A DNA stretch of 64,000 nt from Thermaerobacter sp. PB12/4term (GTDB taxonomy: Bacteria; Bacillota; Sulfobacillia; Thermaerobacterales; Thermaerobacteraceae), in the NCBI RefSeq assembly GCF_003403315.2, contig NZ_CP048407.1, forward strand, positions 1,550,001-1,614,000, written 5' to 3'. The position numbers and the translations under genes were made by a program. Positions within the stretch are counted from its first letter, which is position 1. Every line of letters begins with the position of its first letter. The notes beneath the pieces were generated by a model, which saw only the letters and a program-made list of their open reading frames with translations, did no database searches and had not been told where the DNA came from. Below are positions 39,667-42,930 of this stretch, piece after piece.

Positions 39667-40443
39667 TCAGACGGCCGTGATCCCCCCGTCGATGGCCAGG
39701 ACCTGGCCCGTGATGTAGGACCCGGCCTCGGACGCGAACAGCAGCACCGCGCCCTGCAGGTCCCGCTCGCCGCCCAGCCGCCGCAGGGGAACGGACTGCT
39801 CGATGAGGGGCCGGTACTGGGCCAGGATGCCCCGGGTCATCTTGGTCGGGAAGAACCCGGGCGCGATGCAGTTCACCGTGATGCCGTATTCCGCCAGCTT
39901 GGCCGCCAGGTCGCGGGTGAAGTTGATCACCCCGGCCTTGGAGGTGTTGTAGGGCAGGGTCTGCATCACCCGCGGGTCGCTGCCCCGCAGGCCTGCCACC
40001 GAGGCGACGTTGATGATCCGGCCTCCCCGGCCCCGGTCCACCATCACCCGGGCCGCCTCGCGGCTCATGTAGAAGGTGCCGTGCAGGTTCGTCCGGATCA
40101 CCTTGTCCCAGGCTTCCAGGGGGATCTCGAACAGGGGGGCGCCCCAGGTGGCCCCCGCGTTGTTGACCAGGATGTCCAGGCCACCCAGGGCTTCGACCAC
40201 CTGGTTGACGGTGGCCACCACCTGGTCGTAGTCGGTCACGTCGCAGCGCAGGGCCAGGCACCGGATCCCCTGGGAGCGCAGCTGCTCCTCCGCTTCGCGC
40301 AGGCCCTCCTCCTTGCGGGCCGTGATCGCCACGGCCGCCCCGGCCTCCCCCAGACCCTGGGCGATCTGAAGGCCCAGGCCGCGGCTGCCTCCGGTGACCA
40401 GGGCCACTTTCCCGTCCAGCCGGAAACGATCGAGAACGCCCAC
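39667..40443 (-). CDS. Short-chain dehydrogenase/reductase
   Basis: 258 residues. Classical SDR: NAD(P) motif TGGSRGLGLQIA, NNAGAT, catalytic Ser in INVASVAG, and Tyr-x3-Lys in YNTSKAG. The closest recognisable types are gluconate 5-dehydrogenase-like and 3-oxoacyl-ACP reductase-like SDRs; substrate not defined. ITARKEEGL after the second strand suggests an NADP(H) preference (Arg). GTG 40443 follows GGAGG at about 10 bp. It is divergent from the acyl-CoA dehydrogenase/kinase pair, so it could supply a hydroxyacyl dehydrogenase step for the same pathway. Confidence 0.9.
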   Translation of the reverse strand: MGVLDRFRLDGKVALVTGGSRGLGLQIAQGLGEAGAAVAITARKEEGLREAEEQLRSQGIRCLALRCDVTDYDQVVATVNQVVEALGGLDILVNNAGATWGAPLFEIPLEAWDKVIRTNLHGTFYMSREAARVMVDRGRGGRIINVASVAGLRGSDPRVMQTLPYNTSKAGVINFTRDLAAKLAEYGITVNCIAPGFFPTKMTRGILAQYRPLIEQSVPLRRLGGERDLQGAVLLFASEAGSYITGQVLAIDGGITAV

Positions 40444-40621
40444 GTGACGGCCGCCTCCTTCCACCCGGCCGGGCGGCCGGAGACGGGCCGCCACCCGGCC
40501 GGCGCCGGGCATGCAGGTATTTCCTTCTCGGCAGCGAAGCCAACTCCTACCGCCGGGCGGCCCGCCCGCCGGAAGGCGGCGGTTCGGGCGAGGGCCCGCT
40601 GCGCGAAGCGCCACCGGGGTG

Positions 40622-41815
40622 ATGCTCGTGTACGATTTCCGGCCGACCCCCGAGCAGGAAGCCGTCCTGGAACGCACCCGCGCCATCATGGACGAGCACG
40701 TCTACCCGGCCGAGGCCGAGTTCTTCCGGACCGGCACGCTGCCCGAAGAGCGCATGAAGGCCATCCAGCAGGCGGTGAAGGAGGCGGGGCTCTGGGCCCC
40801 CCACATGCCCAGGGAGGCCGGGGGCCTGGGCATGGGCATGGTGACCCTGGCGCTGATGAACGAGATCCTGGGGCGGAGCCCCCTGGCGCCGCGGGCCTTC
40901 GGAACCAGCGCCCCGGACACCGGCAACCAGGAGATCCTCTGGATGTTCGGCACGCCCGAGCAGAAGGAACGGTTCCTCAAGCCCAACCTGGCCGGCGAGA
41001 TCGATAGCTGCTTCGCCATGACCGAACCGGAGGTGTCGGGTTCCGATCCCACCACCATCCGGACCCGGGCGGTGCGCGACGGCGACCACTGGGTGATCAA
41101 CGGCCACAAGTGGTTCATCACCAACGCCTCCCGGTCGGCCTTTGCCATCGTCATGGCCGTCACCGACCCCGGCGCGCCGCCCCACCAGCGGGCCACCATG
41201 ATCATCGTGCCTACGGACACGCCTGGCTTCCGCATCGTCCGCCAGATCCCCGTGATGGACGATGGGGGTGGCCTGGGCACCCACGACGAGATCGTCCTCG
41301 AGGACTGCCGCGTGCCCGTGGAGAACACCCTGGGGCCCGTGGGAGAGGGCTTCCGCATCGCCCAGGCCCGCCTGGGCCCCGGGCGGATCACCCATGCCAT
41401 GCGCTGGATCGGCGTGATGAACCGCAGCTTCGAGCTGATGGTGCGGCGGGCCCTGACCCGGGAGACCCGCGGCCAGAAGCTGGCAGAGTTCCAGACCATC
41501 CAGAACTTCGTGGCCGACTCCTACGCCGAGATCCAGGCGGCACGCCTCTTGACCCTGTATGCGGCCTGGCGCATGGATCAGGGGCTCGATGCCCGCAAGG
41601 AGATCTCGCTGATCAAGTTCTTCGGGGCCCAGGTCCTCCACCGCGTGGTGGACCGCGCCCTGCAGGTGCACGGAGCCCTGGGCTATTCCCGGGACACGCC
41701 CCTGGAGCTGTTCTACCGCGAGGCGCGGGCGGCCCGCATCTATGACGGCCCCGATGAGGTCCACCGGGTGGTGGTGGCCCGGCGGATCTTCAAGGAATTG
41801 GGAGGCCAGCCATGA
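40622..41815 (+). CDS. Acyl-CoA dehydrogenase family protein, ACAD10/11-like
   Basis: 397 residues, FAD-dependent acyl-CoA dehydrogenase fold with CFAMTEPEVSGSDP and WFITNAS flavin-binding motifs. The usual catalytic Glu position near the C-terminus reads YDGPDEVHR, with Asp375 in place of Glu; from memory DGPDEVH is the form found in ACAD10/11 and related bacterial proteins such as LvaC rather than in fatty-acid beta-oxidation enzymes. ATG 40622 has only a weak site. The stop overlaps the start of the APH-like kinase by 4 bp, reproducing as two genes the kinase-plus-dehydrogenase combination fused in human ACAD10/11. Confidence 0.88.
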   Translation: MLVYDFRPTPEQEAVLERTRAIMDEHVYPAEAEFFRTGTLPEERMKAIQQAVKEAGLWAPHMPREAGGLGMGMVTLALMNEILGRSPLAPRAFGTSAPDTGNQEILWMFGTPEQKERFLKPNLAGEIDSCFAMTEPEVSGSDPTTIRTRAVRDGDHWVINGHKWFITNASRSAFAIVMAVTDPGAPPHQRATMIIVPTDTPGFRIVRQIPVMDDGGGLGTHDEIVLEDCRVPVENTLGPVGEGFRIAQARLGPGRITHAMRWIGVMNRSFELMVRRALTRETRGQKLAEFQTIQNFVADSYAEIQAARLLTLYAAWRMDQGLDARKEISLIKFFGAQVLHRVVDRALQVHGALGYSRDTPLELFYREARAARIYDGPDEVHRVVVARRIFKELGGQP

Positions 41816-42930
41816 GCCAGCCGGAAAGCCAGCGCCTGGCCGGTCCGGGTGGGGATGGGTTCCCGCCCGGCACCATTCCCGTGCGGCCGGGAGAGGAACT
41901 GGACCTGGATGCGGTGACGGCGTTCCTGGAGCGGGAGGTGCCCGCGTTTCCGGGACCTCCTGTGGAAGTACGGCAGTTCCCCGCAGGGGCGTCCAATCTG
42001 ACCTACTGGTTGCGGGCCGGGGATTGGCAGGCCGTGCTGCGCCGGCCGCCCTTCGGCCCGCTGCCGCCCCGGGCCCACGACATGGTGCGGGAGGCCACCA
42101 TCCTGCACCACCTGCACCCCGTCTTCCCCCTGGCCCCGCGGCCGCTGGCCGTCTGTCCCGACCCCTCCGTGCTGGGGGCGCCTTTCTATGTGATGGAATA
42201 CCGGCCCGGCGTGGTGGTCGACGACCAGTTCCCCGGCGGTCGGACCCCGCCTCCCGAAACCTGCCGCCGCATCGCCCAGCGGGTGGTGGACACCCTGGCC
42301 GATCTCCATGCCGTGGACTACCGACAGGCGGGGCTGTCGGGGTTGGGGCGGCCGGAGGGGTTCGTCCGCCGGCAACTGGAGGGCTGGGCCGGCCGCTGGC
42401 GGCGGGTGGAGACGGAACCCATCCCCGCCCTGGCGTACCTGCTGCCCTGGCTGGAGGAACGGGTTCCCGAGCCGGCGGGCACCGCCCTGATCCACAACGA
42501 CTTCAAGCTGAACAACATGATCCTCGACCCGTCCCTCGACAGGGTGGTGGCGGTGCTGGACTGGGAGATGGCCACGGTCGGGGATCCCCTGTTCGACCTG
42601 GGTGTCAGCCTGAGCTACTGGGTCCACCCCGACGATCCCGAGGTCCTGCGCAACGGCCTGCCTACGGTGACCACCTGCCCGGGTTTTCTGCGGCGCGGCG
42701 AGTTCGTCCACCGGTACGCCCTGCGCACCGGCCGCGACGTGAGCGGCATCGGCTGGTATCTGGTCTTCGCCTACTTCAAGCTGGCCGTCATCCTTCAGCA
42801 GATCTACTACCGGTGGAGGGCGGGGCAGACCCAGGACCCCCGTTTTGCCAGCTTCGGGTCCATGGCCCGCGGCCTCATCGAGCTGGCGGCGGAGGCGGCC
42901 GGCCGCGGGGCGGGCGCGGGGTTGCTTTAA
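41812..42930 (+). CDS. Aminoglycoside-phosphotransferase-like kinase (LvaA / ACAD10-11 kinase-domain type)
   Basis: 372 residues with a protein-kinase-like APH fold: ATP-binding part with FPAGASNLTYWL, catalytic loop LIHNDFKLNNM (His228, Asp230) and the metal-binding VLDWEMATVGDP. This is not a typical drug-resistance enzyme. Members coupled to acyl-CoA dehydrogenases phosphorylate the 4-hydroxyl of hydroxyacyl-CoAs so the dehydrogenase-like partner can eliminate phosphate. ATG overlaps the acyl-CoA dehydrogenase stop, which strongly links the two. The 4-hydroxyacyl-CoA substrate is inferred from this partnership, not shown. Confidence 0.85.
   Translation: MSQPESQRLAGPGGDGFPPGTIPVRPGEELDLDAVTAFLEREVPAFPGPPVEVRQFPAGASNLTYWLRAGDWQAVLRRPPFGPLPPRAHDMVREATILHHLHPVFPLAPRPLAVCPDPSVLGAPFYVMEYRPGVVVDDQFPGGRTPPPETCRRIAQRVVDTLADLHAVDYRQAGLSGLGRPEGFVRRQLEGWAGRWRRVETEPIPALAYLLPWLEERVPEPAGTALIHNDFKLNNMILDPSLDRVVAVLDWEMATVGDPLFDLGVSLSYWVHPDDPEVLRNGLPTVTTCPGFLRRGEFVHRYALRTGRDVSGIGWYLVFAYFKLAVILQQIYYRWRAGQTQDPRFASFGSMARGLIELAAEAAGRGAGAGLL

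Follow-up and report, generated by a model that had tools for sequence, protein, structure and literature searches.

In the 64,000-nucleotide stretch of Thermaerobacter sp. PB12/4term DNA analysed here (the window), two adjacent genes, encoding an acyl-CoA dehydrogenase (ACAD) and an APH-fold kinase, probably form an operon that removes the hydroxyl group from 4-hydroxyacyl-CoA, by analogy with mammalian ACAD10 and ACAD11. Given the residues kept in both proteins and the tree position of the ACAD, the most likely product of the pair is 2-enoyl-CoA. An earlier sequence-only reading had described a split ACAD10/11-like pair with a divergently transcribed SDR. The three open reading frames and the 4-bp ATGA overlap are present as described (Table 1), and the split ACAD10/11-like assignment is borne out, the catalytic and phosphate-binding residues all being in place and the tree agreeing.

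Table 1. Features of the kinase-ACAD locus in window coordinates
Feature	Position	Strand	Details
SDR oxidoreductase, divergent	39667..40443	-	258 aa; Pfam adh_short; PRK08213 'gluconate 5-dehydrogenase' subfamily
Intergenic region flanked by the divergent start codons of SDR and ACAD	40444..40621	.	
Acyl-CoA dehydrogenase (ACAD), ACAD11-like	40622..41815	+	397 aa from ATG 40622; Pfam ACAD N/M/C domains
ATGA overlap, kinase start within ACAD stop	41812..41815	+	
APH-fold kinase	41812..42930	+	372 aa; Pfam APH PF01636, 1e-51

The source genome is a single contig of 2,820,915 bases. Judged by their GC content by codon position, which reaches 89-94% at the third position (72% GC in the window), the genes are typical coding sequences. 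For the ACAD, GTG 40628 is an alternative start and the only one of the two that is kept in Thermaerobacter G008; the SDR frame can be extended to 40689, the conserved protein beginning at GTG 40443 with GGAGG ahead of it and the extension being non-conserved. The ATGA overlap likely couples translation of ACAD and kinase. In G008, the ACAD tail is longer and a short gap precedes the kinase; the overlap is thus not conserved in the genus. No sigma-70-like site was found in the intergenic region between the divergent starts.

Mouse ACAD11 is the top PDB match of the ACAD; human ACAD11 and a relative from M. abscessus are also among the best, and ordinary ACADs score lower. In the alignment with mouse ACAD11 (40% identity), R250, R255, H258, R261 and D375 correspond to R626, R631, H634, R637 and D753, respectively. 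The phosphate-binding set R250, H258 and R261 is found in the motif RLGPGRITHAMR, and Asp375, correctly recognized by the sequence-only reading as an Asp at the usual catalytic Glu position, lies in the C-terminal RIYDGPDEVHRVVVARR. According to modelling of ACAD11, R626, H634 and R637 surround the 4-phosphate and D753 is the base; Ala or Leu substitutions of the former three were the most disruptive to phosphate elimination (PMC12440821). The window ACAD keeps every residue, D753 included, whose replacement abolished this step in ACAD11. The full Arg/His/Asp set is carried by none of the five other ACADs of the source genome that were compared, in which the base position is Glu (four proteins) or falls into an alignment gap (the fifth). 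Asp alone, which had been the main clue, is not diagnostic, since a Bacilli ACAD group with YDGTDEIQR has the Asp and lacks the Arg/His set; taken together, the residues are diagnostic. The YDGTDEIQR ACADs (L030, L060, L076) form a separate group, often located near ACAD11-type loci in Bacilli. The window ACAD is proposed, by analogy, to be a 4-phosphoacyl-CoA phosphate eliminase.

Grouping with ordinary beta-oxidation enzymes had been named beforehand as the outcome that speaks against this assignment; it was not observed. In a maximum-likelihood tree of 40 proteins, with LvaC and ACAD10 not among its rows, the window ACAD is placed with the ACADs that bear the Arg/His signature, which constitute a single clade of 30 rows (support 100/100, branch 0.74), separate from ordinary ACADs, the five from the source genome included, and from the YDGTDEIQR group. 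Within this clade, a core of 14 rows (100/100) contains mouse ACAD11 together with Cupriavidus, Deinococcus and most Bacilli proteins. The window ACAD lies outside the core and is joined (94/98) by five Bacilli proteins that are 61-64% identical to it; a wider, less firm group (80/83) adds proteins of Rhodococcus, Massilia, Caulobacter and Streptomyces. On sequence grounds, it is assigned to a sister clade of the ACAD11 core clade, present in several phyla. The closest ACAD found outside the genus, at 70% identity, is that of a Ktedonobacterales MAG (L018), which came to light after the tree and is not one of its rows.

The kinase, encoded by a single-copy gene in the source genome, retains the corresponding features of its mammalian relative: R93, E94 and R187 align with R86, E87 and R176 of the ACAD11 kinase, and H228, D230, N235 and D250 with its HxD His, D220, N225 and DWE Asp. 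Equivalents of D220, N225, R86 and R176 are also kept in nearly all paired kinases examined; in ACAD11, D220 and N225 are catalytic, and R86 and R176, matched by R93 and R187, are the proposed CoA-contacting residues. The closest solved kinase structure (PDB 9o56, 'Aminoglycoside phosphotransferase') shares about 55% identity with the window protein and clusters with Bacilli kinases encoded beside an ACAD of the ACAD11-core type; a literature search for a paper on this structure found none, and we know of no function for it. By analogy, the window protein is a proposed 4-hydroxyacyl-CoA kinase.

Transferred from ACAD10/11 and their bacterial counterparts, the reaction would begin with the kinase using ATP to phosphorylate the CoA thioester at its 4-hydroxyl, which would yield 4-phosphoacyl-CoA. 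As in ACAD11, Asp375 of the ACAD would then abstract a proton, with action at the alpha and beta carbons and transient reduction of FAD, while R250, H258 and R261 may stabilize the leaving phosphate. Its expulsion would give a 2-enoyl-CoA without net oxidation, which could enter beta-oxidation. Burkholderia counterparts of LvaA and LvaC carry out phosphorylation and elimination in vitro (PMC11342911). Counting against the transfer of this chemistry to the window pair are the position of its ACAD outside the ACAD11 clade and the 40% identity to the mouse enzyme.

Three of four Thermaerobacter genomes contain the pair, and kinase relatives were found neither in the fourth nor in 146 other genomes sampled across the phylum; gain of the pair by transfer is plausible. 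A scan of species genomes revealed 355 stretches encoding kinase relatives, the best 80 of which are mostly from Bacilli. A signature ACAD lies within 10 kb at 57 of these best 80 loci, 50 of the ACAD11-core type and seven of the window type, a division that follows the best tblastn match and not the tree; the other 23, partly from short contigs, have no signature ACAD within 10 kb. Pairs occur across Bacilli, Deinococcota, Chloroflexota, Gemmatimonadota, Actinomycetota and Proteobacteria, including plasmid records of Deinococcus, Thermus, Azospirillum, Ruegeria, Rhodococcus, Massilia and Caulobacter, and a search of viral contigs yielded no relatives. The Ktedonobacterales locus L018 has the order AMP-ligase, ACAD (the 70% identical protein) and kinase (56% identity), and ACAD and kinase are adjacent in this order in the Gemmatimonadota loci L025 and L098; no kinase is annotated within 5 kb of the signature ACADs of L107 and L109, which counts against the role proposed for the window pair. 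The suggestion that the chemistry is here extended to a new lineage does not hold, since the same pairs are widespread, Gram-positives included. The 355 kinase-related stretches from the species-genome scan likewise rule out a first Gram-positive case.

The separation of the ACAD from the ACAD11-containing clade also fits a pair that performs the same phosphorylation and elimination on another hydroxyacyl-CoA, be it with a different hydroxyl position or derived from branched, cyclic or side-chain acids. Bacilli hold two ACAD clades, the kinases beside window-type ACADs form a group of their own, and both ACAD types coexist in one Neobacillus genome (L023 and L070), which suggests different substrates; moreover, sister members occur amid diverse catabolic genes, the Massilia one in the vicinity of a gene of the bile acid:sodium symporter family and the one in Streptomyces with a P450 and a CoA transferase. 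A literature search for a steroid-related use of kinase-ACAD pairs found no paper. The phosphate-binding residues, however, are the same as in ACAD11, and in a cellular test that also compared 5- and 6-hydroxy acids, 4-hydroxyhexanoate was reported to undergo ACAD10-dependent phosphorylation (PMC11342911). A different substrate for the window pair is unlikely, though conceivable; equally tentative is the more general notion that the sister clade, with its own kinase partners and members in several phyla, serves a hydroxyacyl-CoA class other than 4-hydroxy fatty acids.

Dehydroxylation of 4-hydroxyacyl-CoA by the pair is compatible with a further reading that concerns the SDR only, namely that the three genes make up one lva-like pathway in which the SDR reduces 4-oxoacyl-CoA as LvaD does. 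SDR relatives of about 50% identity are present in 32 of the 50 loci with ACAD11-core type ACADs (among the best 80), in 25 cases 21-119 nt after the ACAD, and another adjoins the Thermus pair. Yet Thermaerobacter G149 and the family member G150, which do not have the pair, retain the SDR (85-91% identity), and the transporter genes beside it are those found in the window (the lack of the pair in G150 is weaker evidence, as this assembly is incomplete and fragmented); the Bacilli pairs of the ACAD's own clade carry a different SDR (37-40% identity); and the SDR scores above the NCBI cut-off for the subfamily named gluconate 5-dehydrogenase. A common pathway of the three genes is doubtful, and membership of the SDR, which the sequence-only reading had suggested, is not supported; the SDR is regarded as a neighbour.

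The same-strand upstream neighbours of the SDR in G149 (L124 7867-11589, minus strand) encode a thiamine-pyrophosphate enzyme and an AMP-ligase, and the SDR may belong to an acyl-CoA route with these two enzymes. Beyond the SDR in the window, an ECF transporter/TenA-like operon (34939-39116, minus strand) stands behind a TPP riboswitch (39283-39402, minus strand; Rfam RF00059, 57.2 bits), just upstream of which a promoter-like site is located (39454-39426). One 928-aa protein (35732-38518, minus strand) contains two ECF ATPase domains and a C-terminal part that by eye is transmembrane and EcfT-like, pointing to a fused energy-coupling module.

That the ACAD is an ordinary beta-oxidation dehydrogenase beside an unrelated small-molecule kinase is highly improbable and was rejected on the tree and the residues: the fold is common to both types and the top NCBIfam model is acryloyl-CoA reductase, albeit with a score far below the cut-off, but the tree joins the protein to ACAD11 and separates it from ordinary ACADs with 100/100 support, the latter lack the Arg/His signature, and the same kinase family is adjacent again and again.

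The window pair is an ordinary example of common bacterial gene pairs, not a new system, and apparently represents an unassayed sister branch of a recently characterized enzyme pair; we know of no assayed member of this clade. The chemistry of ACAD10 and ACAD11 was first described in 2024-2025: the human enzymes contain both activities in one protein and make 4-hydroxy fatty acids burnable. The role of FAD in the redox-neutral phosphate elimination is still unsettled. A separate kinase and eliminase from a thermophile, which are probably heat-stable, would be handy for structural and mechanistic work. The sister clade also flags proteins across bacteria that are annotated as acyl-CoA dehydrogenases and are probably not dehydrogenases, allowing genome annotation to be corrected.

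Mammalian ACAD11 and ACAD10 (PDB 8V3U/8V3V; PMC12440821, PMC11342911) consist of the same two domains, and all ACAD11 residues discussed above (D753, R626, H634, R637 and R631; kinase D220, N225, R86 and R176) are conserved in the window pair. The window has two genes in the order dehydrogenase-kinase, whereas the mammalian enzymes are single kinase-dehydrogenase proteins; the HAD domain of ACAD10 is lacking, and HAMR replaces HCMR in the ACAD.

The Pseudomonas lva operon (LvaA/LvaB kinase, LvaC, LvaD, LvaE) likewise has separate kinase and ACAD genes with an SDR nearby. LvaC is 56-62% identical to ACAD10/11 (PMC11342911), which presumably places it in the ACAD11-containing clade, not in that of the window ACAD. 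The operon combines the LvaE ligase and the LvaD reductase, in contrast to the window: no acyl-CoA ligase was seen beside the pair among the ORFs of 34000-48000, read by eye, and the SDR is divergent and independent of the pair. Since P. putida can do without LvaE (PMC6692424), the absence of a ligase weakens the case for an lva operon but not that for the chemistry. A DUF6285 protein, a possible equivalent of LvaB, is not encoded in the source genome; the P. citronellolis cluster, too, has no identified lvaB homologue (PMC6692424). On pTT27 of Thermus HB8 (L100 5224-9125), SDR, ACAD, kinase, DUF6285 and histidine phosphatase genes form a run, in which DUF6285 is a candidate for a small partner resembling LvaB.

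Most similar to the window ACAD are the signature ACADs of Bacilli, Ktedonobacterales and Gemmatimonadota pairs with an adjacent kinase (L018, L024, L025, L031, L098). In the Bacilli pairs, unlike in the window, the kinase gene either precedes the ACAD gene or lies at a greater distance, and the SDR is a different one; L018, L025 and L098 share the gene order of the window pair, L018 differing by an AMP-ligase gene in front.
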